From an uncultured Alistipes sp. (GTDB taxonomy: Bacteria > Bacteroidota > Bacteroidia > Bacteroidales > Rikenellaceae), in NCBI GenBank assembly GCA_944323075.1, contig CALURC010000014.1, forward strand, positions 1-64,000: DNA of 64,000 nucleotides, written 5' to 3'. Below are positions 3 to 16,348 of the stretch, one piece after another. Below the pieces are notes generated by a model that was not told the origin of the DNA, did no database searches, and saw only the letters and a list, made by a program, of their open reading frames with translations. Both the position numbers and the translations under genes were made by a program. Numbering within the stretch: the stretch's first letter is position 1; every line of letters begins with the position of its first letter.

Positions 3-1154
3 CGCTATCATCTGGATCTGGTGATGATGACACACGGATGGAGACGGTTCCCCTCCGACAACCTGTTCCGTCCCGCACCATTCACCCCCAAGCACTTTAT
101 CGAACGGGGACAATATATCTCCGGACGAGTCGTCAGTTCGATCGGACTATCGGCAAAAAATGCTCAAGTCGATGCCATAGCACTTACCGGAGAAAATGTA
201 TTGGGAATGACTGTTGCCGATTCTTCTGGGTATTTTATACTTGACGGCTTGGATTATAAAGGTCCCACATTATTTATGGTCTCAGCAAAAACCGCGCGAG
301 GGAAAGGAAAAACAATCCCATTTATTGAATTTGACACGCTTTATCCACGACCTGTGGTCAAACAACAAAATTTATACAATTCGGTCTATTCATCTGAAGA
401 TTCAGCCACCATCAACAGTTACGTCAATCAACGCAAAAAAAATTATGAACAATCTCATTTTTTCAATGGATATGATCTGGATGAAATAGTTGTCGAAGCA
501 ACAAATCTTCGGAAACCCCAGACTTATCTGATGGGAAATTTGTATGATACAGCCGATTTGGCTCCATATAAAAAAGTGCCTTTATATATGTATTTATTGA
601 CTTTACCCGGTGTCACCACAGGAACTACTGGAGACGAAGAGAATATCCCATGCTTCAAATTAAAAAGATTTGATGGACCCGGTTTCAGTCCGGCTCAATT
701 AAAAATTGACAATAGAATTGTTTCCAATATCAATGAAGTCAGGTCTTATCATGTTGACGATGTCGAGTATCTTAATATTGTCAAAACGACAGGAGGAAGA
801 TTAGAGGGTATAAAGTATAATCTTGATTATCCCTATCGGGTCGAAATCTATTTGAAAGAAGATAGAAATACAAAGAAGAATTATTTGACATATAGGACTT
901 TGGGGTATTCCGAGTGTATGGAGTTCTACTCACCGGTATACGACACGCCCGAACGGGTGAACAATCCTCGACCGGACAACCGAACCACCCTGTACTGGAA
1001 TCCATACGTGCAAACCGATATGACCGGTAAAGGTTTTGTAGAGTTCTATACGGATGACCGCGAAGACGCCGAACTCGAAATCTCAATTGAAGGAGTTACC
1101 GATGAAGGGGAGCCTATCTTTCATCGTTCGACATTGTCTGAAAAGAAACCATAA
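3..1154 (+). CDS. C-terminal part of a carboxypeptidase-regulatory/TonB-plug-like protein (5' end outside window)
   Basis: The reading frame is open to the left edge and reads R-Y-H-L-D-L-V-M-M-T-H-G-W-R-R-F, so the visible part begins inside a gene. The motif L-M-T-H-G-W-R-R is typical of large Bacteroidota surface or periplasmic proteins that carry macroglobulin-like (MG2), carboxypeptidase-regulatory and TonB-plug domains. A carboxypeptidase-regulatory-like fold follows (I-S-G-R-V-V ... D-S-S-G-Y-F ... G-L-D-Y), then a plug-like stretch with D-L-D-E-I-V-V-E-A. There is no outer-membrane barrel, so it is probably not a complete TonB receptor. The last 100 residues (W-N-P-Y-V ... F-Y-T-D-D) fit the closing beta domain of that family. 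A link to the RiPP genes downstream is only positional. Confidence 0.6.
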   Translation, partial: RYHLDLVMMTHGWRRFPSDNLFRPAPFTPKHFIERGQYISGRVVSSIGLSAKNAQVDAIALTGENVLGMTVADSSGYFILDGLDYKGPTLFMVSAKTARGKGKTIPFIEFDTLYPRPVVKQQNLYNSVYSSEDSATINSYVNQRKKNYEQSHFFNGYDLDEIVVEATNLRKPQTYLMGNLYDTADLAPYKKVPLYMYLLTLPGVTTGTTGDEENIPCFKLKRFDGPGFSPAQLKIDNRIVSNINEVRSYHVDDVEYLNIVKTTGGRLEGIKYNLDYPYRVEIYLKEDRNTKKNYLTYRTLGYSECMEFYSPVYDTPERVNNPRPDNRTTLYWNPYVQTDMTGKGFVEFYTDDREDAELEISIEGVTDEGEPIFHRSTLSEKKP

Positions 1155-1223
1155 GTTTTATCCAACGGAGTAACCCGAAAATCCGTAAAACAGAGTAGGG
1201 AGAACTATTAATCTTTAATCATT

Positions 1224-1519
1224 ATGAAAAAATTAGTGTTAAAAAGGAGGTCGTTGCGAGAATCAATAAACAAGCAATGCAAAAACTAAAAGGAGGAGTA
1301 GGAGCCTCATATAACGGATCTACCATTCAATCCAATTGTGAAGTTCTAGTTTGTGATGGATCATGTATTACATGTCATCAAGATACTTGTGCAGCTTCTT
1401 GTAGTAATACTTATTCTCCAAGTTGTGTCCTAACTTGTGCAAATGAATGCTATGACCTTGATTTAATAATGATGGCATACACTTATTTATATCCAACTAA
1501 TTGGCGATGTGTTTATTAA
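1224..1519 (+). pseudogene. Class I lanthipeptide-like precursor with GG leader, frameshifted in the leader
   Basis: Starting at ATG 1224 the peptide begins MKKLVLK, then the frame breaks in the A-run 1241-1245. If one A is added, the reading continues K-E-V-V-A-R-I-N-K-Q-A-M-Q-K-L-K-G-G, which is the Bacteroidales GG-leader family (TIGR04149-like), about 25 residues. As given, frame 1 stops after 21 codons. An in-frame ATG at 1277 yields an 80-residue product with only M-Q-K-L-K-G-G as leader. The part after G-G is 73 residues with 10 Cys, 8 Ser and 7 Thr, many adjacent (GSC, ITC, DTC, AASC, PSC, LTC), as expected for a lanthionine-type substrate. It lies just before the split dehydratase genes. 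The lesion could be real decay, phase variation or a homopolymer sequencing error. Confidence 0.7.
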
Positions 1520-1606
1520 TATTAAAAGTACGAAGGGTTATAAATCGATTACTAACCGACTTATAGCTCTTTTGAAATCATTTTATTATAAATCAAATTG
1601 TATTTT

Positions 1607-3781
1607 ATGCGATCCAACCCCTTCCCATACATTCCATATGTAAATTATGTATTTCGTACTCCGTTGTTTCCCTATAAGGATAAACGAAGTCTTTCTGTTG
1701 TGCTGGATAATTCAACTTTCGAAGAAGCAGTATTCTTGGGATCTCCAGAGCTATACAAAGAGATGAAAGAAAAGTTTTTGGGAAAGGAGTGTAAATTGGC
1801 CGAATCTCTATGCAAATATCTGAACCGGAGCCGTACCCGCTGTACGCCTTTCGGACTGTTCGCTGGCTGCTCGGTGGGTGAACTTGCGGATAGAACTGAA
1901 ATCGAACTGGCTGATATATCGCAATACCGGCGTTGTACCCGTTTAGACATGAACTATCTTTGCGCTCTGATTCAGTTTCTAGAGAAGCAGGATGCTGTAC
2001 ATCAACAGCTGTTGTGGTATCCTAACGACAGTATATACAAGTTGGCAGGAAAACTCCGTTACATCGAATATTTTTATCGTGGCACCAAACGAATTCATCA
2101 GATCAATAGTGTCGAATCGTCGGAATATCTTGATAAAATCTTCGTGGTGGCTTGTTCCGGAGCCACCATCCGGCAGCTGGCAGAAACTGTGATTGAGGAG
2201 GATATTTCGTATGAGGAAGCAGAAGTATTCATTGAAGAGTTAATTGATTCTCAACTGCTTAAAAGTGAATTAGAAGCGAGTGTAACAGGAGATGATCTAC
2301 TTAATGTATTGATCCAAAAATTACAACGTTTTAAAAATGTGCCGCAGCTGTCCTTGCTTATACAGATCAGAGAATTACTACACGCGATTGATGTATCTTC
2401 CCCCGGAGATTCGATCGGTTATTATGATCGAATCATTGATATAATCAAACAAATAGGCGTCCCGTTTGAGCTTAAATTTCTGTTTCAGACAGACATGTTT
2501 AAACCAGTTCAACAAGCGGTAATATCGCGGGATGTGATTGCGGATATAAAAGATGTACTCGGTTTCCTGAACCGAGTTACACTTTCCCGCGGCGAATCCA
2601 ACCTCTCTCAGTTCGCAACGGCATTTTACGAACGTTTCGAGGAGCAGGAAATACCTTTGGTGCAGGCATTGGACAAGGAAGCTGGTATCGGCTATCCCGT
2701 ATCGACCCAGAATTCCGGAGATGTAAATGATTTGATTGATAATTTACAAATACCATTCCGTCAGTCTTTGAGTAATCAAATTCATTTTTCATGGTTAGAT
2801 GGTATTTTATTGGATAAATATATCGAATCACGTATCAATCACCAAACCTGTATTACGCTTACAGATGATGATATTCCTATTAAAACGGAAAATTGGGATG
2901 ACATGCCAGACACAATCTCCGTTATGTGCAATATACTTCAGGAAGCTGATGAAGGTAATTATAAATTACATATCAAGTCTGCAGGTGGTTCCTGTGCCGG
3001 ATACTTATTAGGCCGTTTTTGCCATCTCGATTCACAAATCTATGGACTTGTAAAAGAGATTGCCGATACCGAACAACAGCTTCATCCAGATGTTTTATAT
3101 GCAGAAATAGCCCACTTACCGGAATCTCGAATTGGAAATATTGCATCACGACCGATACTTCGTGATTATGAAATCCATTATTTAGCTCAATCCGGAGTCG
3201 AGATAGAGAAACAAATCCCTGTTTCAGATCTGCTGTTGTCCGTCAAAAACGGAAAGATCATCATGACATCCAAGAAATTCGGTAAAGAGGTTATTCCCCG
3301 TTTAACCAATGCTCATAACTACAGTTTTAACTCTATGCCGATTTATCATTTTTTATGTGATATGCAGACTCAAGGATTACGGGGTGGATTCTATTTTGGA
3401 TGGGGTGAACTGTTTAATCGTTTTTCTTATTTGCCACGTGTAGAGTACAAAGGTCATATTTTATTATTGCAAACATGGAATCTTTCTACAGATGATATCA
3501 AAGGTTTCGATAAACTCGATGACAAAGCTCTAATAATTAAAATGGAAGAGTTGAGAGAAAAAAAACATCTTCCGGCTGAAGTAGTTGTTCCCGATGGAGA
3601 TAACGAATTGTATGTAAATTTAACCGACATACTAAATATTCGGACGATGATTTCTTTAGTAAAAAAAAGAGGCAGATTTAAGTTGACAGAATTTATGTAT
3701 GAAACAGATTTGGGTATTGTAAAAAATCCACAAGGAGAATCTTTTACAAATGAATTCATTTTCACTTTTCACAAATCTTAG
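1607..3781 (+). CDS. Lantibiotic dehydratase, large (glutamylation) subunit of a split LanB
   Basis: This 724-residue protein matches the N-terminal lantibiotic dehydratase domain, which transfers glutamate from Glu-tRNA to Ser/Thr of the precursor. Motifs seen are F-R-T-P-L-F-P near residue 17 and R-S-R-T-R-C-T-P-F-G-L-F-A-G at 74-87, the Arg/Arg/Thr set of this family, followed by R-L-D-M-N-Y-L. A full LanB is about 1000 residues; here the elimination domain is a separate gene immediately downstream, as in thiopeptide and pinensin systems. ATG 1607 is chosen rather than an upstream TTG at 1598 because it gives the usual compact N-terminus. The gap to the precursor is 87 bases. The frame is intact and the key motifs are kept, so it may still be functional. 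Confidence 0.85.
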   Translation: MRSNPFPYIPYVNYVFRTPLFPYKDKRSLSVVLDNSTFEEAVFLGSPELYKEMKEKFLGKECKLAESLCKYLNRSRTRCTPFGLFAGCSVGELADRTEIELADISQYRRCTRLDMNYLCALIQFLEKQDAVHQQLLWYPNDSIYKLAGKLRYIEYFYRGTKRIHQINSVESSEYLDKIFVVACSGATIRQLAETVIEEDISYEEAEVFIEELIDSQLLKSELEASVTGDDLLNVLIQKLQRFKNVPQLSLLIQIRELLHAIDVSSPGDSIGYYDRIIDIIKQIGVPFELKFLFQTDMFKPVQQAVISRDVIADIKDVLGFLNRVTLSRGESNLSQFATAFYERFEEQEIPLVQALDKEAGIGYPVSTQNSGDVNDLIDNLQIPFRQSLSNQIHFSWLDGILLDKYIESRINHQTCITLTDDDIPIKTENWDDMPDTISVMCNILQEADEGNYKLHIKSAGGSCAGYLLGRFCHLDSQIYGLVKEIADTEQQLHPDVLYAEIAHLPESRIGNIASRPILRDYEIHYLAQSGVEIEKQIPVSDLLLSVKNGKIIMTSKKFGKEVIPRLTNAHNYSFNSMPIYHFLCDMQTQGLRGGFYFGWGELFNRFSYLPRVEYKGHILLLQTWNLSTDDIKGFDKLDDKALIIKMEELREKKHLPAEVVVPDGDNELYVNLTDILNIRTMISLVKKRGRFKLTEFMYETDLGIVKNPQGESFTNEFIFTFHKS

Positions 3782-3823
3782 ATATACGAGTCCAAACTAT
3801 CTGTAACCTAAATTATAAATTAG

Positions 3824-4702
3824 ATGCAAAGAACATTTATACCCGGCAGTGAATGGCTGTTTTTCAAAATATATACTGGGCATAAAAGTGCTGATGAAAT
3901 ATTGGTTTCGCACTTATATCCTATTGCCGAACAGTTGAGAGAAGAAAACACGATAGATGATTATTTTTTCATTCGTTATACCGATCCTAAATTTCATATT
4001 CGGTTCCGATTCCATGTTCCAGATGTACTGAATTACGGAAAAATTTTCAAAGCTGTGTATGAACCTTTATCAAGAAGCATTGAGAATGCGATGATATGGA
4101 GTGTAATGTGTGATACCTATCAACGGGAAATTGAACGTTACGGAGCATTGTCTATGGAATTATCAGAACATCTATTCTGCAAGGACAGTCGTTATGTTTT
4201 GATGTTGCTTGCCTCTTTAAAAGATTCACCGTCGGAGGAACAAGATCGATGGCAAATGTCATTATGTCTACTTGACGACACTCTTTCGGCTTTCGAATAT
4301 ACGGTCGAAGATAAAAAAGAGTTACTGGGAAAAATGAGTGCAGGTTTTAAGTCTGAGTTCGGATTTACTTCCAGTACCTTCAACAAACAGTTAAATGATA
4401 AATTTCGAATACAGCGGAAAAATATTGAAAGTGCATTCATCCCGGAAACGAGTCCACTTAAGGTATATGAAAATGTACTCAGACTACGTCGCGAAGAAAT
4501 AACTTCTCTGGCCCAACAGATCATACCGTTAATAAAACAAGGATCGATAGATAAAGACAGTTATGTGCGGAGTATCTGCCACATGACAATGAATCGTTTG
4601 TTCCGCTCAAAAAATCGATTATACGAAATGGTAATATATGATTTTCTGTTCCGCTACTATCAGTCGGTTTTGGCCAAACTTAAGTATGCAAAAAATAAAT
4701 AG
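3824..4702 (+). CDS. Thiopeptide-type/LanB C-terminal elimination protein (SpaB_C)
   Basis: This is a 292-residue stand-alone elimination domain, which removes the glutamate installed by the large subunit to leave dehydroalanine or dehydrobutyrine. The family pattern is clear: F-I-R-Y-T-D-P-K-F-H-I-R-F-R-F (Arg near 60), Y-Q-R-E-I-E-R-Y-G (101-107) and a C-terminal S-I-C-H-M-T-M-N-R-L-F with His near 253. These correspond to the NisB elimination-site Arg, Arg and His. It follows the large subunit by 42 bases and precedes the exporter by 6, so the three are probably co-transcribed. The active site looks intact, in contrast to the LanC-like protein of the same cluster. Confidence 0.85.
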   Translation: MQRTFIPGSEWLFFKIYTGHKSADEILVSHLYPIAEQLREENTIDDYFFIRYTDPKFHIRFRFHVPDVLNYGKIFKAVYEPLSRSIENAMIWSVMCDTYQREIERYGALSMELSEHLFCKDSRYVLMLLASLKDSPSEEQDRWQMSLCLLDDTLSAFEYTVEDKKELLGKMSAGFKSEFGFTSSTFNKQLNDKFRIQRKNIESAFIPETSPLKVYENVLRLRREEITSLAQQIIPLIKQGSIDKDSYVRSICHMTMNRLFRSKNRLYEMVIYDFLFRYYQSVLAKLKYAKNK

Positions 4703-4708
4703 TTTCCT

Positions 4709-6928
4709 ATGAAATTTCCGATATATAGACAATTGGACGCTATGGATTGCGGTCCCACCTGTTTGAGAATGATAGCCCGGTTTTACGGTAAAAATTATTC
4801 TTTGCAGTCGTTGCGAACCAAATGTCATATTACACGAGAAGGGGTCTCGATGTTGGGTATTAGTGACGCAGCAGAATTGATCGGATTCCGAACAGAAGGC
4901 GTAAAGTTGACATGGGAACAATTACGGGACAATATTCCGTTTCCGTGTATTGTCCATTGGAAACAAAGACATTTCGTTGTGGTATATGACATCAAAAAAA
5001 ATCGCGGTTCATCTCAAAAAAACGATTATTGGATATGTGTTGCGGACCCCGCTGGCGGTTTGCTAAAATACAGAAAAGACGATTTCCTTAAATGTTGGTA
5101 TTCGACAAAAGAAGACGACCTGATGATCGGCACCGCATTGATTATCGAACCTTCTCCTCGTTTCTATGAAGAAAAAGACGATTCAGATAAAAAGTCTGTC
5201 ATGAGGTTGGGTTATGCAATACATTATTTGCGGCCTTATACAAAATTTATCCTTCAGCTTTTTCTCGCAATGCTGACAGGAAGTATGATCAGTCTGATAT
5301 TTCCTTTCCTTACCCAAGGTGTTGTCGATTATGGTATTAATAATAGCGATTTAGGATTTATTATCACCATATTGATTGCTCAGGTAGCTTTGACCCTCGG
5401 ACAGACAGCTAACGGTCTGATCCAAAGTTGGCTCTCTTTGCACGTAACTACACGGATCAGTATTGCCTTTATATCAGATTTTTTGGCAAAACTGATGCGT
5501 TTGCCAATTTCATTTTTCGATGTAAAAATGGTAGGCGATATTATGCAGCGAATCGGAGACAATGGTCGTATTCAAAGCTTTTTGATGGGAACATTGCTCA
5601 GTATTATTTTTTCATGTTTTACATTCGTCGTGTATGGAGCAATTATGACTACATATAACTTGACAATTCTCGGAATTTTTTTGTTGGGTAGTGCTTTGTA
5701 TGCCGGATGGGTTGTCGTGTTTTTAAAGAAACGAAAGGAACTTGATTATAAACGCTTCCAACAGGGAGCAGATAATCAGAGCAGTCTGGTACAGTTGATC
5801 AATGGTATGCAAGAGATCAAACTCAACAGTTGTGAAAAACAAAAACGCTGGGAGTGGGAGCGGATTCAGGCCAAAATGTTCCGTATCAGCATTAAGTCAA
5901 TGGCTCTTGGACAGACACAACAAGTCGGAGGTCTATTTATCGATCAGACCAAGAATGTTCTGATTTCATTTATTGCGGCAAAATCTGTGGTTGAAGGAGA
6001 GATGACTCTTGGTATGATGATGGCCATGCAATACATTTTGGGGCAATTGAATGGCCCAATCTCACAATTTATCGGATTTATTCAAGCTGCACAAGATGCC
6101 AAAATCAGTGCGGAACGTTTGAATGAAATTCATGATATGGAGGACGAGGAACCTGAAGATAAAGAAAAAATACGGGATATTCCGGCTAATGCAGATATTG
6201 AATTGAAAAATGTGACTTTCCAGTATGAAGGCCCTCATTCTGAAAAAGTGTTGGATGAAGTTAGTCTAAAGATTCCAGCTGATAAAGTTACGGCTATCGT
6301 CGGGGTCAGTGGTAGTGGTAAAACGACTTTGTTAAAGTTACTATTGGGATTCTATAAACCTGTATCTGGAAGTATTACTCTTAATAATATTGCTTTAGAA
6401 CAATATAGTGATTCCTGTTGGCGACGTAATTGCGGTGTGGTTATGCAAGAGGGGTTTATCTTTTCCGACACATTGGAAAACAACATCGGTGTTGTGGATG
6501 AGATCCCTGATTTTGATCGAGTTGAGCATGCAGTCAAAGTGGCTAATGTGGAAGATTTTGTGGAAAGTCTCCCTCTGCGTTATAACACCAAGATCGGAGC
6601 TGATGGACATGGACTCAGTACCGGACAAAAACAACGATTGTTCATTGCACGGGCGGTTTACAAAAATCCTAAATATATCTTTTTTGATGAAGCGACCAAT
6701 TCACTGGATGCCAATAATGAAAAAATAATCATGGACAATATGAAACAATTCTTTGAAGGGCGTACAGTCGTAATCGTAGCTCATCGGTTGAGTACCGTAA
6801 AGAACGCGGATACGATAGTGGTTTTGAAAAAAGGGAAAATCGTCGAACAAGGAACACATAGTGAATTGATTGCCGTTAAAGGAGCTTACTATAATTTGGT
6901 CAAAGACCAATTAGAGTTAGGAAATTGA
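4709..6928 (+). CDS. Peptidase-containing ABC transporter (C39 protease, exporter of the RiPP)
   Basis: This 739-residue inner-membrane exporter cuts the leader after the double Gly and pumps out the mature peptide. The N-terminal C39 domain has Gln8, Cys14 (M-D-C-G-P-T-C-L), His88 (Q-R-H-F-V-V-V) and Asp113 (A-D-P-A-G-G), a complete cysteine protease set. A six-helix ABC membrane domain follows (about 165-450), then the ATPase with Walker A G-V-S-G-S-G-K-T-T, signature L-S-T-G-Q-K-Q-R, Walker B Y-I-F-F-D-E-A and H-loop V-A-H-R. With the HlyD and TolC-type genes downstream it would form a tripartite exporter. No sign of damage. Confidence 0.92.
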   Translation: MKFPIYRQLDAMDCGPTCLRMIARFYGKNYSLQSLRTKCHITREGVSMLGISDAAELIGFRTEGVKLTWEQLRDNIPFPCIVHWKQRHFVVVYDIKKNRGSSQKNDYWICVADPAGGLLKYRKDDFLKCWYSTKEDDLMIGTALIIEPSPRFYEEKDDSDKKSVMRLGYAIHYLRPYTKFILQLFLAMLTGSMISLIFPFLTQGVVDYGINNSDLGFIITILIAQVALTLGQTANGLIQSWLSLHVTTRISIAFISDFLAKLMRLPISFFDVKMVGDIMQRIGDNGRIQSFLMGTLLSIIFSCFTFVVYGAIMTTYNLTILGIFLLGSALYAGWVVVFLKKRKELDYKRFQQGADNQSSLVQLINGMQEIKLNSCEKQKRWEWERIQAKMFRISIKSMALGQTQQVGGLFIDQTKNVLISFIAAKSVVEGEMTLGMMMAMQYILGQLNGPISQFIGFIQAAQDAKISAERLNEIHDMEDEEPEDKEKIRDIPANADIELKNVTFQYEGPHSEKVLDEVSLKIPADKVTAIVGVSGSGKTTLLKLLLGFYKPVSGSITLNNIALEQYSDSCWRRNCGVVMQEGFIFSDTLENNIGVVDEIPDFDRVEHAVKVANVEDFVESLPLRYNTKIGADGHGLSTGQKQRLFIARAVYKNPKYIFFDEATNSLDANNEKIIMDNMKQFFEGRTVVIVAHRLSTVKNADTIVVLKKGKIVEQGTHSELIAVKGAYYNLVKDQLELGN

Positions 6929-6953
6929 TATATAACTTATTAAATTACGACAC

Positions 6954-8237
6954 ATGCCTAGACAAACAATATATAGTGAGGAGGTTCAAGAAATAATGGG
7001 GCGTATTCCCGGATGGGTAGTACGTTGGGGATTGATAGTACTCTTTTTTTTGTTTCTGCTGATTATGGGAATTACATGGTTCGTCAGATATCCCGAGACC
7101 ATATCGGCTCCGATTGTACTGACAACTCTTAACCCTCCAGCAGATCTAATAGCCCGTTCGTCAAATAAAATCGAGTATATCTTGGTGAAAGATGGTGCTT
7201 CGGTCAAAAAGGATGATGTTGTGGCTGTTTTATATAATACGGGTGACTTTCGATCAGTCTTGGAATTGGAAAATATTTTACTACAAAAAGGAGAAGATTG
7301 GAAACTCTATTTTTCAAAAGATTTTTTAAGAAAAGATTATTCGCTCGGAGAGCTACAATCATATTATATTCAGTTTGTTAAACAGTGCCTTTTGTATGAT
7401 CATTATTTGCAAACTGATTTTACTGTTCAAAAACAAAAATTAATTGAGGCTAATATCTTTAAAACTCAGCAAACTATCGAGAGTCAAAATCAGCAAATGT
7501 CCCTTTTAAAGAAAGATATGGAATTTGAAAATCGGAACCTCGAACGGGATTCTTTATTGTTACACTCAGAGGCTCTAACTCCGGCTGATTACGAACGTAC
7601 TAGACAATCTGTTTTACAAAAGCAGATCGCTTTACTTAGCCAAAATACGGTTATTACTTCAACCGAAGCTAATCTGATTAATATGGAACAACAATTACTC
7701 GAATTGCAGATACAACGTGATAATGAGACAACGAACTATCAGGTTCAGCTTTCGGAGGCAAGAGAACAATTGTTAATGCAGATCAATTTATGGAAAGAAA
7801 AATATATTCTTCAGTCGCCAATAGAAGGCAAAGTAACTTTTACAAAATATTGGAGTAGTAATCAGAATGTTATATCTGGCGAGCGATTGGCTTCAGTCGT
7901 ACCCGACGATTCATTACAAATAATCGGTAAAATGTATATTCCGTCACAAGGTTTCGCTAAAGTAAAACCAGGACAGATTGTGAATGTTAAACTAAACGGC
8001 TTCCCATATATGGAATACGGTATATTAAAAGGAAAGATCCACTCTCTTTCGTCGATTCCGGAAATGGAAGGATACGCAGCAGAAGTGGCATTTGAAAAAG
8101 GATTGATTTCCAGCTATAATACTCGGTTAAAATTTATTCAACAAATGGATGGGACTGGTGATATAATCACAAAAGATCAGCGATTGTTGGAACGTTTTCT
8201 CAGTCCGCTCAAATCTGCAATAAAAAATGACTTATAG
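6954..8237 (+). CDS. HlyD-family periplasmic adaptor (membrane fusion protein)
   Basis: This 427-residue protein has one N-terminal membrane helix (about 20-43) after a short cytoplasmic segment, a split biotinyl/lipoyl half-motif (D-G-A-S-V-K-K-D-D-V-V-A-V-L), a long coiled-coil hairpin rich in Gln, Glu and Leu (about 150-275) and the second half-motif (L-Q-S-P-I-E-G-K-V) leading to a beta domain with V-K-P-G-Q-I-V. This is the layout of bacteriocin-type adaptors that link a C39 ABC exporter to an outer-membrane channel. It lies 25 bases after the exporter and 6 bases before the glycosyltransferase, clearly in the same unit. Confidence 0.88.
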   Translation: MPRQTIYSEEVQEIMGRIPGWVVRWGLIVLFFLFLLIMGITWFVRYPETISAPIVLTTLNPPADLIARSSNKIEYILVKDGASVKKDDVVAVLYNTGDFRSVLELENILLQKGEDWKLYFSKDFLRKDYSLGELQSYYIQFVKQCLLYDHYLQTDFTVQKQKLIEANIFKTQQTIESQNQQMSLLKKDMEFENRNLERDSLLLHSEALTPADYERTRQSVLQKQIALLSQNTVITSTEANLINMEQQLLELQIQRDNETTNYQVQLSEAREQLLMQINLWKEKYILQSPIEGKVTFTKYWSSNQNVISGERLASVVPDDSLQIIGKMYIPSQGFAKVKPGQIVNVKLNGFPYMEYGILKGKIHSLSSIPEMEGYAAEVAFEKGLISSYNTRLKFIQQMDGTGDIITKDQRLLERFLSPLKSAIKNDL

Positions 8238-8243
8238 ATTGTT

Positions 8244-9197
8244 ATGACGACATCAGTAGCCATGTGTACATATAACGGAGCTCAATATATAGAAGAACAG
8301 CTTCGTTCTATTTTAAAGCAAACCCATCCGATCGATGAAATCGTTGTCTGTGATGATGGATCAAAAGATGGGACAGTCGCTCTAATAGAAAATTTTATAA
8401 AACATTATCCGGATAAAATACGACTAATCCGTAATCCGGTGAATATGGGCTATACCCGTAATTTTGAAAAAGCGATATGTAATTGCAATGGAGATATCAT
8501 TTTTCTTTCAGACCAAGATGATATATGGATGCCAGACAAAGTCGAAGTGATATGTAATTACTTCGAGACACATCCCGACAAAAGTTTTGTTTTTACTAAC
8601 GCCATTTTAGTAAATCGTTTCGGTACGCCATGTTATTCCTGTTCTTTGTTTGATGTTGTGGGTATGGATCGACGGAACAAGAAACTATTTCGTCAAGGAC
8701 ATGGATATCAAGTGTTGAGTACTTCAGGACGCGTTACTGGAGCAACAGCAGCTTTACGGGCCTCATTTGTCCCATATTGCATTCCGTTTCCCGCAATAGG
8801 ACAAGTCCATGATGAAATGATTGCAATCTCCGCACAATTAAGGAATAAACTCGGTTTTATCGAACGTAGTTTGATCCGTTACCGATTACACGAGGCTCAG
8901 TCGGTGGGATTAGGTGCTTTGTTCATATATCCAGCCCAACGATGGGAAATGGCCCGAGATATCCTAATGTGGCATCGTAGTCTGGCTGAATTTGATCCGG
9001 AGATACAGACTGATAAGTTAAGCTTTGTTTATAAACGTTTTTGGGCTCTTCGCTCACGGATCGCTCTATTTCGAATCATTGGGATGGGACTTCGTCATGA
9101 ATATCGAACTTACTACCCTGATGCGAATATTATGTTCTGGCAAGATGTGAAAGGAATTATAATCAGATTTATGTCGACATTTAAATATAAAGAATAA
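8244..9197 (+). CDS. Glycosyltransferase family 2 protein in the RiPP cluster
   Basis: This 317-residue soluble GT-A enzyme starts with M-C-T-Y-N-G-A-Q-Y-I-E-E-Q-L and has the nucleotide-sugar binding V-C-D-D-G-S-K-D-G-T near 35-44 and the metal-binding S-D-Q-D-D-I-W near 89-95. The family moves a sugar from a nucleotide donor to an acceptor; neither donor nor acceptor can be read from the sequence. H-D-E-M (about 191) and R-Y-R-L-H-E (about 212) resemble rhamnosyl-type GT2 enzymes. Its place inside the RiPP operon makes the peptide, or a cell-envelope glycan that supports it, the likely acceptor. That is inference. Confidence 0.85.
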   Translation: MTTSVAMCTYNGAQYIEEQLRSILKQTHPIDEIVVCDDGSKDGTVALIENFIKHYPDKIRLIRNPVNMGYTRNFEKAICNCNGDIIFLSDQDDIWMPDKVEVICNYFETHPDKSFVFTNAILVNRFGTPCYSCSLFDVVGMDRRNKKLFRQGHGYQVLSTSGRVTGATAALRASFVPYCIPFPAIGQVHDEMIAISAQLRNKLGFIERSLIRYRLHEAQSVGLGALFIYPAQRWEMARDILMWHRSLAEFDPEIQTDKLSFVYKRFWALRSRIALFRIIGMGLRHEYRTYYPDANIMFWQDVKGIIIRFMSTFKYKE

Positions 9198-9213
9198 TAA
9201 TTTGATATGCAAT

Positions 9214-11322
9214 ATGTTACGATCATTCTTTTTAAGTTCCGGATTGATTGGAGGCCGTAATCGCCGATTGATCATACAAAAAAAATATGCACAGACCAAT
9301 ATTCGGACAGTACGATGTGGACTACGTGCTTTTCGCTTTGACGTTTCACAGACAGCGAGTCTATATCTGAAACTCAAACGCAGGCAACCTCTTCCAGCTG
9401 ATACCTGTGTTCTCGAATTCGATTACATCTGCCCCGATTACATCGTTTTTTTTCGGGTCGTAGTGGGAAACGATTCTATTTATGTCCGCAATGTAAATCC
9501 ATCCAGTAGTTGGACTCCGTTCAGTATTGATCTATCGGGGTGTAAACGGTTTCTACGAGATAATATGACCCGCCTATACAATAACACGATCCAGCTTCAT
9601 GTTGTACCCTTTCCCACCGCTTCCGGAACAATTTTTCGACTTAGGAACATTCGTTTGCGTCCATATACAAAACAGGAAAAAGATAGGTTGACATATAAGA
9701 GACATTGTTTAGAACGCGAGACAGCCTCCACTGATCTGAATAACTACTATTTCAATCAAATTTTCCCTTGTACGATTCATTCTGTGGAGGTCATGGAAAA
9801 AGAGATTCGTATCGAAGGAACAACAAGATCCATCGGAACAGATCTATATCTATGTGAAATTCCCATGTTCTCGAATATTGCCTGCGACAATCTAAGGATG
9901 GTACAAAAAATTAAAGTGCTAAACGGAGCTTTTTCTGTTGTTGTCGATCGTTTGACCAACAAATATGGGAAAACCTATGATCGTCTCTATTCCCGTTGGT
10001 TTCTGGTATGTAAATCTCCTTCAGGTTATACGATCTGTTCACACGGTAGATATGCGGATAGTCAGGTTTCCGCCCATCGTTTCCTATTGCCGGAAGCCCG
10101 AACAAAAAAGGGAATCGGGTCGTTCCACGAAACTCCCTTCGAATCAGATCTCGATGAATTGGATATTTCCTACATGACAATCAATATTTATCTCAATGAC
10201 TACATCCGTTTGAAGCCAGAACCAGGAACAATTCCATTCGATTACAATGGTATAACTTATTACACTGTAAATAAGGAGATCGAAAAATATGACCATCTGA
10301 TGCTTGCTGCGTCCAAACGAAATATTCGAGTAGCCGTGATTTTGCTTATCAGGACTGAACAACAAAGTCCGAATAAGCAGGTGGGACTTATGTTAGAGTA
10401 TCCAGAAATGAATCCAGCTGGAGCTTACTCAATGCCTAATATGACTACCAACGATTCATTGCATTTATATGCGGCTGCAGTCGATTTTCTGGCATCCCGG
10501 TACAATCGTCCAGATGAAAAATATGGACGTATTCATTATTGGATTGCGCATAACGAAGTCGATTCAGGACAGGCTTGGACAAATGCAGGGAATAAAAAAC
10601 TACCTGAATTTCTCGAGCTCTATATGAAGTCTATGCGTTTGATTTACTATACGGCAAGGAAATACGATGCCGATGCACAAGTGCTGGTTTCGTTAACGCA
10701 TTATTGGAAAAGCCGCCATGGTGAACCCAACTGTTACGAACCAGCTATGCTGATGGAATTACTATTGCACTATTGTCGGATCGAAGGAGATTTTCATTGG
10801 GGAATAGCTCATCATCCTTATGCCGAAAATTTGCATGATCCAAAATCATGGTTGGATGCTCATGCTGTTTTCAATATGAATACCCAATACATTACTTTTA
10901 AAAATCTGGAAGTATTGGACGCTTGGATAAATCGTCCGGAAATGTTGTATAAAGGGGAAAAACGGACTTTATTACTATCTGAGCAGAACCCCAACTCTGT
11001 GGATTATTCACAGGAAGCTCTTGATGAACAGGCAGCATGTTTAGCTTATGCAATGAAAAAAGTACAGGCTCTTCCGGGCATAGATGCATACATTGCCCAT
11101 AGTTGGCACGATGAACATTTTGAAGGTGGATTGAAGACAGGATTAAGAAAGTACCCTGATGATCCGAATGACCCCTATGGTAAAAAAAGATCATGGTTCG
11201 TATTCCGGGATGCTGGTACAATACAAGAAGAGAAAACTTTCGAATTTGCGAAAGCCATAATCGGAATCGAAAACTGGAACGAAATATTTCAAAAAGTAGA
11301 AACTGCGACAATAGACAGATAG
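9214..11322 (+). CDS. DUF5722-like protein with glycoside-hydrolase-like TIM-barrel portion
   Basis: About 702 residues. The first 140 look like a beta-sandwich carbohydrate-binding region; a second beta region follows to about 290. The C-terminal 400 residues read like a glycosidase-fold barrel: I-H-Y-W-I-A-H-N-E-V-D (acid/base-type N-E), H-H-P-Y-A-E-N near 530, and L-L-L-S-E-Q-N-P-N as a candidate nucleophile strand, then A-H-S-W-H-D. This pattern agrees with the DUF5722 family as I remember it; I cannot confirm it without a search. There is no signal peptide, so it may act in the cytoplasm, which is odd for a hydrolase. ATG 9214 is preferred to TTG 9202. It sits between the GT2 gene and the LanC-like gene, suggesting a joint role in sugar decoration. 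Confidence 0.55.
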   Translation: MLRSFFLSSGLIGGRNRRLIIQKKYAQTNIRTVRCGLRAFRFDVSQTASLYLKLKRRQPLPADTCVLEFDYICPDYIVFFRVVVGNDSIYVRNVNPSSSWTPFSIDLSGCKRFLRDNMTRLYNNTIQLHVVPFPTASGTIFRLRNIRLRPYTKQEKDRLTYKRHCLERETASTDLNNYYFNQIFPCTIHSVEVMEKEIRIEGTTRSIGTDLYLCEIPMFSNIACDNLRMVQKIKVLNGAFSVVVDRLTNKYGKTYDRLYSRWFLVCKSPSGYTICSHGRYADSQVSAHRFLLPEARTKKGIGSFHETPFESDLDELDISYMTINIYLNDYIRLKPEPGTIPFDYNGITYYTVNKEIEKYDHLMLAASKRNIRVAVILLIRTEQQSPNKQVGLMLEYPEMNPAGAYSMPNMTTNDSLHLYAAAVDFLASRYNRPDEKYGRIHYWIAHNEVDSGQAWTNAGNKKLPEFLELYMKSMRLIYYTARKYDADAQVLVSLTHYWKSRHGEPNCYEPAMLMELLLHYCRIEGDFHWGIAHHPYAENLHDPKSWLDAHAVFNMNTQYITFKNLEVLDAWINRPEMLYKGEKRTLLLSEQNPNSVDYSQEALDEQAACLAYAMKKVQALPGIDAYIAHSWHDEHFEGGLKTGLRKYPDDPNDPYGKKRSWFVFRDAGTIQEEKTFEFAKAIIGIENWNEIFQKVETATIDR

Positions 11323-11342
11323 CTAAACCTAACACTAAACTT

Positions 11343-11702
11343 ATGAACTACAATTTAACTCAGAGGGAAGAAGAGATTATGGAGATAGTCTGACAAAATG
11401 ATTCTATGTTCATCGACGAAATCGGCGATATACTAAAACCTCTCAAGTTCTATTACAATACTATTTCGACAATAATAAGGAATTTAAAAAAGCGTGTATT
11501 TCTTGAAGTATTTGATAAAACTTTTCGCTACGGTCCGGCCATTACCAGACAGAAATATGGCAATATGTTTATAAATGAACTTCTCGTCAAATATTTTGGT
11601 GGATTGTATCGGTAAAGCCTCATCTAATATAAGAATAACTTAGTTACCTCGCAAGATATTGTAGAAATGCTCAAACGAACACAAAATAATAAAAATAAAT
11701 AA
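11343..11702 (+). pseudogene. Decayed BlaI/MecI-type transcriptional regulator with three in-frame stops
   Basis: In a single frame the sequence reads M-N-Y-N-L-T-Q-R-E-E-E-I-M-E-I-V, then TGA at 11391, then Q-N-D-S-M-F-I-D-E-I-G-D-I-L ... F-Y-Y-N-T-I-S-T-I-I-R-N-L, the winged-helix core of BlaI repressors (usual Y-N-T-V-S-T-I-x-R). The TGA replaces the conserved Trp of E-I-x-x-x-L-W, a single-base change from TGG. The frame continues to K-Y-F-G-G-L-Y-R, then TAA at 11613 and TAA at 11625, and still resembles the BlaI C-terminus afterwards (L-V-T-S-Q-D-I-V-E-M-L-K). No frameshift is needed, so the gene was inactivated by point mutations. No BlaR1-type partner lies next to it. Confidence 0.8.
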
Positions 11703-11706
11703 TACT

Positions 11707-12870
11707 ATGATATGGTCCCCAGTTTTGGTAGGTCCAGTCAAAGACGTAGCCAGCCAAAAAATTCGAGAAATTGCTGATATCATCCGAAATAAAGATCATC
11801 ATACAAATAGACATGGCTTGATGACCGGAAATGCGGGAGAAGCGCTTTTTTTGTACTATTATTGCTTCTGGACAGGAAATGATGAATTTTACGACATTGC
11901 ATCAGAATGTTTTATGGATGGAGTAGAGCACAATATAGTTTCCTTAACCTCTTCGACCTCTCCATTAAATTTACATGCTTCATTTTACGATGGGATCAGC
12001 GGTGTCGGATGGGAAATTGCTCATTTGTTGACTCACCAGATTATAGAAGGTGAGATTTCCGATACGATGGGAACTGTTGAACCCTGGTTGTATCGAAGAA
12101 TGATTTATGATACACAACAAAACCGACTGGATTTGCTTCAGGGCGCAGCAGGTATCGGATTGTACGCCGTTCGTCGTGACAATCGTCTCACCAAAGAATA
12201 TTTGCGGAGGTTTGTAAAAGAGTTGTCTTGTGCTGTTTTTGAGAAACAGGACTATGATTCGGGAACGGATTATTCTATCGCCAAGGGGATAGGAGCAATG
12301 ATTCTGTTACTCATAAAAATCGGTGTAAAATACCCCGATATGCCAGAAGTGCAAGTTTTATTAGATTATTTTGGGAAACGTCTGGCAGCCCGTATTCAAG
12401 ATTTGCTTTGTACCAAAGTATTATTGGATAATAAAGAATTAGGCTGGAGAGATGGAGTGTTAGGTACATTATGGGTTGCTCTTTGTTGCCGTGCGGTCAA
12501 TCCTACACTTTGTGAAGATTTAATCGAACGGGTAATCCTTGAATATCATAAACAAATTACTGATTCCATACCGTTCGATTCAGGAATGGCCGGAGGCCTA
12601 ATTAGTGCAGCCCACATTATGAACCGGATATATCACCTTACAGGTAATCGTACATGTAGGGAATTCGCTCGAATACTCTATGAAAAAGAGATAGAGGCTG
12701 CAACATTTATAGATCCTTCCTCGGGATATAATGTGTGGCTAACCGAATCCGACGGATTTTATGGTATACACACAGGTCTTCTAAACGGTCTGGCGGGAAT
12801 AGGTTTAGCTCTAATGGCTGCTGTTTCAGATAATGAGCCTGTTTGGGATGAATGCTTAATGTTGAGTTAA
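11707..12870 (+). CDS. LanC-like cyclase homologue lacking zinc ligands
   Basis: This 387-residue protein has the alpha/alpha-barrel repeats of LanC (G-N-A-G-E-A-L-F, G-I-S-G-V-G-W-E, Q-G-A-A-G-I-G-L-Y, N-G-L-A-G-I-G-L-A-L) and the Bacteroidota ending E-P-V-W-D-E-C-L. LanC enzymes form thioether rings using one zinc held by Cys, Cys and His. Here the usual W-C-Y-G is W-R-D-G (Arg248), the usual C-H-G is D-S-G (Asp291-Ser292), and the active-site A-H-G is A-K-G (Lys193). The frame is open over its full length, so it is not simply dead. It may be a scaffold, leader binder or non-zinc variant. It starts 4 bases after the BlaI remnant and ends 1 base before the TolC-type gene. Confidence 0.85.
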   Translation: MIWSPVLVGPVKDVASQKIREIADIIRNKDHHTNRHGLMTGNAGEALFLYYYCFWTGNDEFYDIASECFMDGVEHNIVSLTSSTSPLNLHASFYDGISGVGWEIAHLLTHQIIEGEISDTMGTVEPWLYRRMIYDTQQNRLDLLQGAAGIGLYAVRRDNRLTKEYLRRFVKELSCAVFEKQDYDSGTDYSIAKGIGAMILLLIKIGVKYPDMPEVQVLLDYFGKRLAARIQDLLCTKVLLDNKELGWRDGVLGTLWVALCCRAVNPTLCEDLIERVILEYHKQITDSIPFDSGMAGGLISAAHIMNRIYHLTGNRTCREFARILYEKEIEAATFIDPSSGYNVWLTESDGFYGIHTGLLNGLAGIGLALMAAVSDNEPVWDECLMLS

Positions 12871-12871
12871 C

Positions 12872-14221
12872 ATGTGGAAACTATTTTTTAAATTGGTTCG
12901 TCGGGGTGTCTGTCTTCTTCTGTTCTTGTCGGCTGAATTATCGGCACAAGAGAAATGGACACTCGAACAATGTATCGGTTATGCGTTGGAACACAACGTA
13001 GATATTAAACAAGCGGAGCTCTCGAGTCAAATCAAAGATATCAGTGTAAACACTGCTAGAAACAGTATATTGCCCAGCGTGACATCGAGTCTGGGACATA
13101 CGAACTATTTCGGACGAGGCCCCTCTCGTGATGGGACCTATACAGATAACAGTCAAATGTCGTCCAATTTAAGTTTATCGGCAGCATTGACTCTGTTTTC
13201 CGGATTTCGGATCAAGCACGACATAAAAAGTAAAACGTTCGATTTTCAGGCATCGCTCAAAGACCTAGAATCGACTCGGGATAATGTATCATTAAACATT
13301 ACCTCTCTTTTTCTGCAAGTACTACTATGTAGAGAACTAGTGCAGATAGCAGAAAATCAAGTAAATCTCAGCCGAGAGCTGGTCGATCGTAACGAGCTGT
13401 TGGTCAAAACGGGTAAAAGTCTGCGATCTCAACTTTTGGAAAGTAAATCCTTGTTGGCAAAAGACCGCTTAACACTGATTCAACGCGAAAATGAACTGAA
13501 ATCAGCTCTGTTAAACCTTAGTCAAGCTATAAATTGGAAAGATACCACTCGTTTTGACGTGTTCGATCCAGAACTAGACTCTTTATCCATATATTCCCCC
13601 ATATCGAATCAAGATGTGACACGAGTTTACGAATATGCCTTAAAAAACCGTCCAAATATCGAAGCGGAAAAACTTCGGCTACAAAGTAGTATGTATAATC
13701 TCTCTGTCGCCAAGTCTGCACGTTATCCTCAAATTTCATTGAGTGGAGGATATAGCAATAGTTATTATTATTCGTTTGTTACGGGTTATAATAATGTGGA
13801 TTTTGTCACTCAGTTGAAAAACAACGGTAATGAATACATTGGAATAAATATCAGTATTCCGATCTTCAATCGCCTGTCCACCCGGAATCAAATTCGCACA
13901 GCACAAACCAGTTTGCGGATGCAAGAATTGGTTTTGGATAATATCCGTAATTCGTTACGCAAAGAGATTGAACAGGCTTGCCAAAATGCTGATGCTGCAC
14001 TTCAGAAATACCTGACAGCTATCGAATCATGGAATGCAGCCACTGAAACGTTCCGATATACGGCAGAACTATCTAAAACCGGACGAGCAACTGTTTACGA
14101 CTACAATAACGCAAAGACTGATATGGAACGCTCCGAATCGGAGATGGTTCAGTCGAAATACGAACTCATATTCAGTCGGAAGATTCTGGATTTTTATGCC
14201 GGTATTCCACTGGTGAAATAG
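12872..14221 (+). CDS. TolC-family outer-membrane channel
   Basis: This 449-residue protein has a signal peptide (L-L-L-F-L-S-A-E-L-S-A near residue 25) and the TolC start W-T-L-E-Q-C-I-G-Y-A-L-E-H-N-V-D-I-K-Q-A. Two internally similar halves follow, each with a long helical stretch; the second half repeats the motif N-R-P-N-I-E-A. L-F-S-G-F-R-I and I-P-I-F-N-R are the usual strand borders. It completes a tripartite secretion path with the C39 exporter and the HlyD adaptor upstream and lies 1 base after the LanC-like gene. Its N-terminal region matches channels that work with RiPP or bacteriocin exporters, but the cargo is inferred only from context. Confidence 0.87.
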   Translation: MWKLFFKLVRRGVCLLLFLSAELSAQEKWTLEQCIGYALEHNVDIKQAELSSQIKDISVNTARNSILPSVTSSLGHTNYFGRGPSRDGTYTDNSQMSSNLSLSAALTLFSGFRIKHDIKSKTFDFQASLKDLESTRDNVSLNITSLFLQVLLCRELVQIAENQVNLSRELVDRNELLVKTGKSLRSQLLESKSLLAKDRLTLIQRENELKSALLNLSQAINWKDTTRFDVFDPELDSLSIYSPISNQDVTRVYEYALKNRPNIEAEKLRLQSSMYNLSVAKSARYPQISLSGGYSNSYYYSFVTGYNNVDFVTQLKNNGNEYIGINISIPIFNRLSTRNQIRTAQTSLRMQELVLDNIRNSLRKEIEQACQNADAALQKYLTAIESWNAATETFRYTAELSKTGRATVYDYNNAKTDMERSESEMVQSKYELIFSRKILDFYAGIPLVK

Positions 14222-14237
14222 AAAAATATTGGATGAT

Positions 14238-14856
14238 ATGGTTACTCGAACTGACATTATTAACTATCTGATTCGGAAACGGGGATACCATTCATATCTC
14301 GAGATCGGTTTAGATGACCCAGAACAGAATTTTACTAAAATACAATGTGAACATAAGGAGTCGGTCGATCCTTATGAACTTTCTAGTCGTTATTGCACAG
14401 CATGGACAGAAAAGGATCTAAATCAATTTTTACAATATTTGACATATAGAATGACATCTGATGAATTTTTTACTCATTATCCGAATAAAAAAGTACGATA
14501 TTATCTTCATTGATGGTTTGCATCTAGAAGAACAAGCAGATCGGGATATCCGAAATGCACTGATGCATCTGAATGAAGGTGGAGTCGTTGTAGTTCACGA
14601 TTGTCTACCTGATTCAGAAGCTTCTCAAAGTGAAGAACATCCCGAAGGATCATGGGTGGGTACTGTATGGAAATCGGTTATTAAATATACACAGTATACA
14701 CATTGTGATATCAAGGTAATTGAAACCGACTGGGGGGTAGGTGTTATAGAATATACGGATAATTTCGATTTTCAGATTCCGGAGAAGTTAAATCTTAATT
14801 ATGAGGAATTCTATAAAAAAGGTATGGATATTTACGGATTTATTCCGATAATTTGA
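14238..14856 (+). pseudogene. Class I SAM-dependent methyltransferase, split by a +1 A frameshift
   Basis: The first part (from ATG 14238) reads T-D-I-I-N-Y-L-I ... Y-L-E-I-G-L-D-D-P, a SAM-binding motif I of a small methyltransferase family, then V-D-P and M-T-S-D-E-F-F. After the A-run 14487-14492 the frame ends at a stop at 14511. One A fewer restores K-Y-D-I-I-F-I-D-G-L-H, E-E-Q-A-D-R-D-I-R-N-A and G-G-V-V-V-V-H-D-C-L-P, the conserved second half, ending at 14856. The joined product would be about 206 residues, the usual length. Gene loss, phase variation or a homopolymer error are all possible. Target unknown; its position suggests modification of the RiPP product or its sugar. Confidence 0.8.
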
Positions 14857-14885
14857 GAATGGTATTTTCATAGGCTTAACCAAGA

Positions 14886-15689
14886 TCACTTTATAGATGC
14901 TCTGAATTGATTATAACCATTTATTATTTCTTTATATCGCAGTTCTATTTCTTCTTTTATTGAAAGCATCCCTGGATTATAATCCCAAAACTCTTCCACC
15001 GCTCGAGTGCGAAGAGAATCCGAAGTCCCTTTGCTGATTTTTTTAAGCCATTCTTCAAAACTTTTGGTAAAATAGTGGTTAAGTTGAACTATGTCATTCG
15101 TAAAACGACTAAAAGCACGAGGTACATATATATATTTCTCATTGACTGCATAATATTCTTCATCATAACGAGGATAGTGTGAACTATCTACTGTATTTAC
15201 ATAATCTGGACGAACAATACTTTTTACATGTTGATTTGCTGGAAAATCGTAGGGCAGCGGTTCTGTATAATTCTGCATGACCGTTCCTTCCGGTTTTTCA
15301 ATATGGCCGTTGGCCGTATAGATTACCCAATTCATACAGACTCCCGCATATTCGTCGTAATCGGCTAAAAAAACGTGAATATCATGATGCTTTTTCAGAA
15401 TAATAAATTCATCAAGATCAATATAAGCAATCCATTTCGTTCGTCCATGCATGTTATATAAACAATGCGTATATGCTTTCAACTGTGGAGAGTTTGTTAT
15501 AGGACAGTCTATAACCTCTACGACTCCTTTCCGGACATACGCTTCGAGAGTCTGTTTGGCTGGGATCACGCTGTTGTTATCATAGAGGATGAAATGCTCG
15601 ATACCGATACTTAGATGATGCTCCACCCATTCGATTAAATAAGGTGTTTCATCCTTCAGGATGGCGCAGATAACAATATTGTATTTCAT
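14886..15689 (-). CDS. Glycosyltransferase family 92 protein
   Basis: The 267-residue reading begins M-K-Y-N-I-V-I-C-A-I-L-K-D-E (start at 15689; an upstream ATG at 15746 would add 19 residues unlike the family). It has the GT92 pattern: L-K-D-E-x-x-Y-L-x-E-W-V-E-H-H near the start, F-I-L-Y-D-N-N-S, and the metal-binding W-I-A-Y-I-D-L-D-E-F-I near 105. H-Y-F-T-K-S-F-E-E-W-L-K-K near the end is also typical. These enzymes add sugars such as galactose to glycans. It faces the RiPP genes, 29 bases from the broken methyltransferase. Whether it belongs to that cluster is uncertain, but similar GT92-methyltransferase neighbours suggest it does. Confidence 0.8.
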   Translation of the reverse strand: MKYNIVICAILKDETPYLIEWVEHHLSIGIEHFILYDNNSVIPAKQTLEAYVRKGVVEVIDCPITNSPQLKAYTHCLYNMHGRTKWIAYIDLDEFIILKKHHDIHVFLADYDEYAGVCMNWVIYTANGHIEKPEGTVMQNYTEPLPYDFPANQHVKSIVRPDYVNTVDSSHYPRYDEEYYAVNEKYIYVPRAFSRFTNDIVQLNHYFTKSFEEWLKKISKGTSDSLRTRAVEEFWDYNPGMLSIKEEIELRYKEIINGYNQFRASIK

Positions 15690-16348
15690 AATACATTGGG
15701 ATTTTATACAGCACTTTAAATATAAATATAAATAATTATAACACAAAGAAAGATCTTATTAATACTAATGACAGCAAAAAATTTATACGTCATTAATATT
15801 TTATTCCGTTCCTTGTTTGCGTTATTCAACCTTGAAATACTCCGACAATTTGAAAATGGATTTATTGCGTAAAAAGCATTTTCCTTGAGTGTAAACCGAA
15901 AAAGGTAAGCGTATTTTTTGATTTTTGAAGAAAACAGGATAAAACAAGAAGTATTATCCCTGCTGACTGTTTTCTTATAGGCTGTTGCTATTTGTTTTTA
16001 ACTCTGATCGTCCTCGTTTTTTCAATAAACATATTGTTAAATAGCTGCATTTTATGTGTTTATGAGACATGTTAATTGTAAGATGTCTTGCTTCCAGATC
16101 CCCAAAAAATAAGGGCGGAAAGACACGTGGCATTAGTGAACATTTACGTAAACACTGGTGTGTATTGCGTACAGACAGCTTTGTATTGATCCTTTCAAAG
16201 ACTTGGCATACATGGAAATCTGACATATTTTTTATAACTTGCTAATGCCATGTCATAAGTTACGATGAATGCAACTGTTCGATATGAAGTGGCTTTTAGA
16301 ATTCGATACACTTGATTATTGTTAATTATAACCTAAATTAAATACATT
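15690..16348. other. Gene-free stretch between GT92 and the Gfo/Idh/MocA cassette
   Basis: About 660 AT-rich bases. No convincing gene was found on either strand; the longest open frame (83 codons, minus strand, 15975-16226) has no recognisable motif. A weak inverted repeat with several mismatches links 16125-16140 and 16239-16254. The last 30 bases presumably hold the promoter of the downstream cassette. Confidence 0.5.

Follow-up and report, generated by a model that had tools for sequence, protein, structure and literature searches.

Genes of the cluster

The start of contig C14 of an uncultured Alistipes genome (G000; 2.5 Mb in 19 contigs) carries a gene cluster of class I lanthipeptide type, which we examined within a window of 64,000 bases, positions 1-64000 of that contig. 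A Pfam profile scan of ten proteins of the cluster region recovered the families proposed in a first-pass annotation of this DNA. That annotation had missed a broken BlaI/Penicillinase_R gene at approximately 11343-11690 and the fact that the window begins exactly at the start of C14, which truncates the cluster at its 5' end. The plus strand carries every gene between 1224 and 14856, and the GT92 gene lies on the opposite one. The genes are as follows:

1224..1519, plus strand: lanthipeptide precursor with its frame broken within the leader (ATG 1224 in one frame, double-glycine (GG) motif and Cys-rich core in another)
1598..3781, plus strand: glutamylation half of LanB, LanB_N (Lant_dehydr_N, Pfam 466 bits; likelier ATG at 1607)
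3824..4702, plus strand: elimination half of LanB, LanB_C (Lant_dehydr_C / TIGR03891, Pfam 227 bits)
4709..6928, plus strand: C39 peptidase-ABC exporter (Peptidase_C39 and ABC, Pfam)
6954..8237, plus strand: HlyD-type periplasmic adaptor (HlyD_3; Pfam, NCBIfam)
8244..9197, plus strand: GT2 glycosyltransferase (Glycos_transf_2, Pfam 108 bits)
9202..11322, plus strand: DUF5722 protein with an extra N-terminal region and no clear export signal (Pfam 378 bits)
11343..11690, plus strand: BlaI-type repressor gene, broken by an in-frame stop with more stops downstream (Penicillinase_R 28.0 bits on 11394-11615, cut-off 22.6)
11707..12870, plus strand: LanC-fold protein without zinc ligands (Pfam LANC_like 60 bits)
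12872..14221, plus strand: TolC-type outer-membrane channel (OEP; Pfam, NCBIfam)
14229..14856, plus strand: methyltransferase split into two frames (Methyltransf_24 on 14461-14856; first half, 14229-14513, without Pfam match)
14886..15746, minus strand: GT92 (Glyco_transf_92, Pfam; likely ATG at 15689)

The separate glutamylation and elimination proteins, the C39, HlyD and TolC exporter components and the methyltransferase remnant had all been proposed in the first pass and were borne out by these matches. Most of LanB_N aligned to NisB, with the RxxRxTPFG motif, two Asp motifs and the GRF motif retained, and LanB_C retained HIRxR and ERYG; a His-x4-NRL motif of LanB_C aligns with NisB only within a stretch that is not significant alone. 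We take the catalytic residues of NisB to lie in these retained motifs. Because both halves keep them, the pair is predicted to form a working Glu-tRNA-dependent dehydratase, and the C39-ABC protein is expected to cleave after the GG motif and to export the product. The genome contains a single LanB_N match and a single LanB_C match, both in the window. LanB_N matches were present in 27 of 393 sampled Bacteroidales genomes, as well as in Bacteroidales records under that name, in contrast to the 0 of 1,136 Bacteroidales genomes given for LanB in the available part of a published survey (PMC10352776); within the genus, one of nine genomes, some of them incomplete, has a match. No YcaO protein was found among the ten scanned cluster proteins (the remaining genome was not searched), and we set aside a thiopeptide reading, its core enzymes being absent from the scanned proteins and LanB_C retaining its elimination motifs. 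A radical-SAM GG reading (TIGR04148/04149) was likewise set aside, with no radical SAM maturase as core enzyme among the scanned proteins (the genome was not searched for one).

The first pass had also described a precursor with a GG leader; the GG motif and the Cys-rich core are present, but they do not share one open frame with the start. The frame that begins with ATG 1224 ends at a stop codon, and a different frame, open at 1277-1519, encodes the GG motif and the core, with 10 Cys and 15 Ser/Thr within the 73 residues of the core. The broken-frame leader piece (1244-1519) scored 13.5 bits against lant_leader_L1a, below the cut-off of 22. An intact precursor lies on a second contig of the same genome, C1; it has an LxLxKx5L...GG leader and a TCxxTC-rich core, and it scored 27.5 bits against the class I leader model NF038153, above the cut-off of 22. 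The two precursors share an element upstream:

1170..1223, plus strand: upstream element common to both precursors, pattern ACAGAGTAGG-N12..40-ATGAAAAAA

The exact pattern occurs at two sites in the genome, solely at these precursors, and a backward control pattern occurs at one site. The frame breaks in the window precursor (1224-1277) and in the methyltransferase (14461-14513) are near A runs, and both could reflect slippage, phase variation or sequencing error.

LanC-like proteins in the window and on contig C1

The LanC homologue named in the first pass is a member of the family by its LANC_like match, but all three of its zinc ligands are gone, and a role for it as the ring closer was not supported. 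In an alignment of 48 LanC-like proteins (330-460 residues only, identical copies entered once), the Cys, Cys and His zinc positions, which correspond to WCYG and CHG of NisC and MadC in the profile alignment, were kept in 42 rows, including the LanC of C1. The six zinc-less rows are the window protein (Arg, Ala, Gly), its orthologue (Ser, Tyr, Gly) in locus L085, which comes from genome G188 of another species in the genus, and four proteins from a separate LanC-like family; in the tree, the window and L085 proteins formed one clade (100/99) apart from that other zinc-less family (99/99). The predicted fold of the window protein, modeled with aligned LanCs, had a predicted local distance difference test score (pLDDT) of 84, and its best PDB match was MadC (8byk, E 1.5e-09, template modeling (TM) score 0.70), with NisC also matched (2g02, E 8.9e-06, TM 0.63). 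Because all three zinc ligands are replaced, the residues predict that this protein cannot be an ordinary cyclase, and the retention of the LanC fold with the loss of the zinc site therefore makes a cyclase-derived protein with another role likely.

Two further LanC-like matches were found in the genome, both at the start of C1, where the gene order is zinc-less LanC-like, GT4 glycosyltransferase, canonical LanC and intact precursor. The canonical protein (Pfam 154 bits) has the Cys, Cys and His ligands and is the only zinc-ligand LanC found in the genome. It grouped with LanCs of split-LanB loci, namely those of L043 and two Dysgonomonadaceae (100/94), and it scored best against the LanM model (92.7 bits). 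We infer that it is the likely cyclase of the system, which would link C1 to the window locus. The first 130 bases of contigs C14 and C1 (L114), which lie midway through a surface-protein gene, are 99% identical, and beyond them the two sequences part; C14:84459 holds a third copy of this stretch that matches less well, over 46 bases.

The sugar block and its relatives

Comparison of gene neighborhoods showed that L085 repeats the order HlyD-GT2-DUF5722-LanC-TolC-methyltransferase, with identities of 51% for HlyD, 52% for GT2, 49% for DUF5722, 34% for the LanC-like protein, 58% for TolC and 64-69% for the methyltransferase; L085 holds the GT4 as well, at 44% identity. In the window, the GT2 gene follows the HlyD gene by 6 bases, and the DUF5722 gene follows GT2 by 4 bases. 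Because L085 repeats the order of the block, the GT2 and DUF5722 genes are, by this gene-order comparison, conserved members of the cluster. L085 has the methyltransferase in intact form, joined in one protein with a LanC-like domain (33.8 bits to Pfam LANC_like). The first pass had counted two glycosyltransferases, and Pfam supports both GT2 and GT92, but the membership of GT92 in the cluster is uncertain. No GT92 was seen in L085, and one is present in the C39/HlyD/LanC-like locus L190. That locus (G341:C90, 3948-15712) holds two LanC-like genes, a GT4, a Gly_transf_sug protein and two GT92-like genes, one of which was included in the Pfam run, beside HlyD and C39.

DUF5722 gave 21 matches within the family, in 15 of 268 family genomes, and, at E 1e-60, a match in one of 393 Bacteroidales genomes, which is the genome studied here. 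We inspected the flanks of 18 of the 21 matches, leaving out one each in G182, G164 and G167; a LanC-like gene stands beside DUF5722 in 2 of the 17 loci other than the window, namely L085 and L090 (G213, another genus, where the two genes adjoin), and the other 15 are without a LanB or LanC match. The DUF5722 match of the first pass stood, but the glycosidase fold that it had assigned is unsupported by structure: neither the single sequence nor a profile found a relative in the PDB at E 1, and a single-sequence model was unusable (pLDDT 31). Glu452 and Glu594 are among the columns invariant in 15 aligned proteins, which suggests a candidate pair of the retaining glycosidase type. The best 12-residue mean hydropathy at the N-terminus was 1.34 in the window protein and 0.27 in the L085 protein, and 10 of 11 free-standing DUF5722 proteins with a full N-terminus were strongly hydrophobic there (at least 2.1), the eleventh, L093, reaching 1.83; this set contains two near-identical pairs and leaves out L088 (internal start) and L090 (cut by a contig end). 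By this measure, the free-standing proteins of several species of the genus look mostly exported, and those of the window and L085 appear to be without an export signal.

Zinc-less LanC-like proteins also accompany glycosyltransferases elsewhere. The GT4 of C1 scored 407 bits against TIGR04157, above the family cut-off of 400, and that of L085 scored 362-379 bits, below it. At E 1e-60, the model was matched in 3 of the 268 family genomes, namely G000 and G188, which both have the block, and G212. Within the family, block and TIGR04157 were associated by a Fisher test at p 0.00025 when the genome studied here was counted and at 0.015 when it was not; the test was post hoc and based on two shared genomes or one, and we give it little weight. 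Across the Bacteroidales, TIGR04157-type GT4 genes occupied 14 places in 10 of 384 genomes (E 1e-60), and a LanC-like gene or domain directly adjoined the GT4 at 6 of the 14 (phmmer 1e-4). In L120, from a Bacteroidales metagenome-assembled genome, a LanC-like-GT4 pair shares one locus with LanC, LanB_N, LanB_C, C39 and HlyD. In L180 (G399), a GT2-LanC-like fusion shares one locus with GT4, a GG precursor, LanB_N, LanB_C, C39 and HlyD, and no zinc LanC was found within its 20 kb. This fusion of 552 residues matched GT2 by Pfam (62 bits) and LanC-like by our custom profile (111 bits; 105 bits to the C1 protein), and it did not reach Pfam LANC_like at E 0.001. A weaker possible fusion of this kind lies in the radical-SAM locus L187 (43 bits to the custom profile, no Pfam LANC_like match), with a matching piece in L188, and G212 has radical-SAM loci with LanC-like, GT4, C39 and HlyD genes. 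Because zinc-less LanC-like proteins and glycosyltransferases occur in both LanB and radical-SAM loci, the sugar module accompanies, by its neighborhoods, both core chemistries. The fusions of LanC-like domains to a glycosyltransferase in L180 and to a methyltransferase in L085 suggest a testable role for the zinc-less proteins.

Interpretation of the pathway

We favor, at a probability of roughly 55%, a class I lanthipeptide pathway of the Bacteroidetes GG-leader type that is divided between two loci, carries an added module of sugar enzymes and zinc-less LanC, probably makes a glycosylated product and is partly decayed. This reading is drawn from the dehydratase halves with their motifs, the exporter parts, the two precursors and the conserved GT2-DUF5722-LanC-like block. 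In such a pathway, LanB_N would bind precursors by their LxLxKx5L...GG leaders and glutamylate Ser and Thr from Glu-tRNA, and LanB_C would eliminate the glutamate to give dehydroalanine and dehydrobutyrine. The zinc-ligand LanC of C1 would close the thioether rings, either of both precursors or of the C1 precursor. The GT2 of the window and the TIGR04157-type GT4 of C1 could add sugars to the peptide, with zinc-less LanC-like proteins as their peptide-holding partners, and a cytoplasmic DUF5722 protein could trim or transfer sugar before the C39-ABC, HlyD and TolC proteins would remove the leader and export the product. Within this scheme, peptide glycosylation, the adaptor role and the DUF5722 activity are putative. 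With its own precursor, methyltransferase and BlaI-type regulator all broken, the window locus may by now work chiefly for the intact precursor of C1. More tentatively, zinc-less LanC-like domains could be general peptide-holding adaptors for tailoring enzymes in Bacteroidales GG-peptide pathways, with a sugar module that plugs into either radical-SAM or LanB chemistry; the window cluster would be the LanB version, its product a class I lanthipeptide that bears sugar, and DUF5722 would tailor it inside the cell as a glycosidase-like enzyme.

Several observations weigh against the favored two-locus pathway. With our custom profiles, a glycosyltransferase was detected in few LanB loci, namely 2 of the 41 named ones and 1 of the 27 unnamed ones. 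Contig ends truncate many of these loci, a few in the unnamed set are only pieces, and two records occur in both sets (L007 = L121, L060 = L127). In one of the three loci with a glycosyltransferase, L134, it lies on the opposite strand. The best syntenic relative, G188, is without LanB_N and LanB_C in a genome that is 79% complete, with the contig of L085 ending inside HlyD, and other core enzymes may accompany the block. The glycosyltransferases could have a target other than the peptide, and DUF5722 is without a known structural relative in the PDB at E 1 and without a paper in the literature searched. The assembly breaks at a repeat at which both contigs start, so that C1 and C14 may be parts of one continuous locus or lie at a great distance from each other. 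Product and enzyme activities are predictions from the genes.

Some of these points would suit an ordinary Bacteroidetes class I cluster whose peptide is left untouched by GT2, DUF5722 and GT92, these three having their function in a cell-surface glycan or in immunity. The scarcity of detected glycosyltransferases in LanB loci, the mostly exported-looking free-standing DUF5722 proteins in several species of the genus and the sugar genes that follow the cluster (GFO/IDH, a xylose-isomerase-like TIM barrel and GH95) all agree with it, but we consider it rather unlikely in view of the tight spacing of HlyD, GT2 and DUF5722, the conservation of the block in L085 and the lack of an export signal in both cluster DUF5722 proteins. 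That the locus is a decaying relic from which nothing is made seems improbable: three genes of the window are broken, LanB_N is matched in so few genomes of the genus, and exporter fragments occur in G182 and G229, but the LanB, exporter, GT2, DUF5722 and TolC frames are intact, a second precursor in the genome is intact, and two of the breaks could be sequencing errors near A runs. Most doubtful of all is that the zinc-less window LanC is itself a cyclase or an alternative ring-former and that C1 belongs to a separate pathway. Its place within the operon and its resemblance to MadC and NisC speak for this, but the ligands are replaced both in the window protein and in its L085 orthologue against the 42 rows that keep them, and a normal LanC and a precursor with a class I leader are encoded on C1, in a genome whose only LanB lies in the window.

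The first pass had proposed a glycosylated, exported product of an undescribed type. The class I lanthipeptide-type pathway, the split dehydratase and the full exporter stood, but "undescribed" was too strong because related systems have been described (PMC7268733 and PMC10352776). Walker et al. 2020 (PMC7268733) describe class I lanthipeptides of Bacteroidetes with LxLxKx5L...GG leaders, split LanB and C39 proteases, and, as far as the available text goes, they resemble the system described here in leader motif and GG, split LanB, C39 exporter and LanCs that score best against the LanM model, as the C1 protein does; they differ in that no GT2-DUF5722 and zinc-less LanC block appears in that text, and here the canonical LanC lies on another contig. 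Pinensin of Chitinophaga pinensis is one of the split-LanB systems of that paper. Like the window cluster, it combines separate glutamylation and elimination proteins in a member of the Bacteroidetes, as far as its available description goes. Pinensin is not known to carry a sugar. Glycocins are modified by SunS-type GT2 S-glycosyltransferases. They share with the window a GT2 in a cluster for a Cys-rich peptide exported by a GG/C39 route, but the window has LanB, and no SunS-type model was among the 25 of 27 NCBIfam matches listed for its GT2. Bacteroidales radical-SAM GG clusters with a glycosyltransferase and LanC are already known, and, in the available part of their description, they share GG precursors, C39 export, glycosyltransferases and LanC-like proteins without zinc motifs, the last thought likely to be uninvolved in lanthipeptides, but have radical SAM at the core where the window has LanB (PMC10352776). 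In rumen metagenome-assembled genomes, 19.2% of lanthipeptides were in Bacteroidota, mostly class II overall, with no mention of a glycosyltransferase in the accessible text (PMC8241843), and nothing on LanB in Bacteroidota was found in the accessible part of PMC13289728. No paper on the set of LanB, glycosyltransferases, zinc-less LanC and DUF5722 was found in a literature that covers few subscription papers. Split LanB with GG leaders, and glycosyltransferase with LanC and radical SAM, are each already known from these sources. Should a glycosylated lanthipeptide be what the cluster makes, the Bacteroidales, an order prominent in the gut, would be the source of a rare type of compound.

Fragments of related clusters were seen in other genomes. 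L115 (G182:C1, ~8603-8890) is a 56-residue piece of the start of a C39 exporter, 80% identical, in a sister species where no LanB was found, and is probably what is left of a lost cluster copy. In L116 (G229:C7, 11302-19772), a related cluster, LanB_N is present as a short piece and the C39 gene is interrupted, its two pieces lying ~3.5 kb apart. The cluster of the window is preceded by one further gene:

21..1154, plus strand: 3' part of a surface gene of plug/carboxypeptidase-regulatory type, cut by the contig start (CarboxypepD_reg 19.7 bits, below the cut-off of 32.3)

After the shared 130 bases, C1 and C14 have differing 3' ends of this surface gene, each followed by lanthipeptide genes, and the gene may be duplicated or recombining. 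Relatives of it occur in L083 (1778-4726, 982 residues) and L087 (11412-14348, 978 residues), with ~30% identity over the cut part; both are divergent to free-standing DUF5722 genes, so that the two gene types are associated outside the lanthipeptide cluster too.

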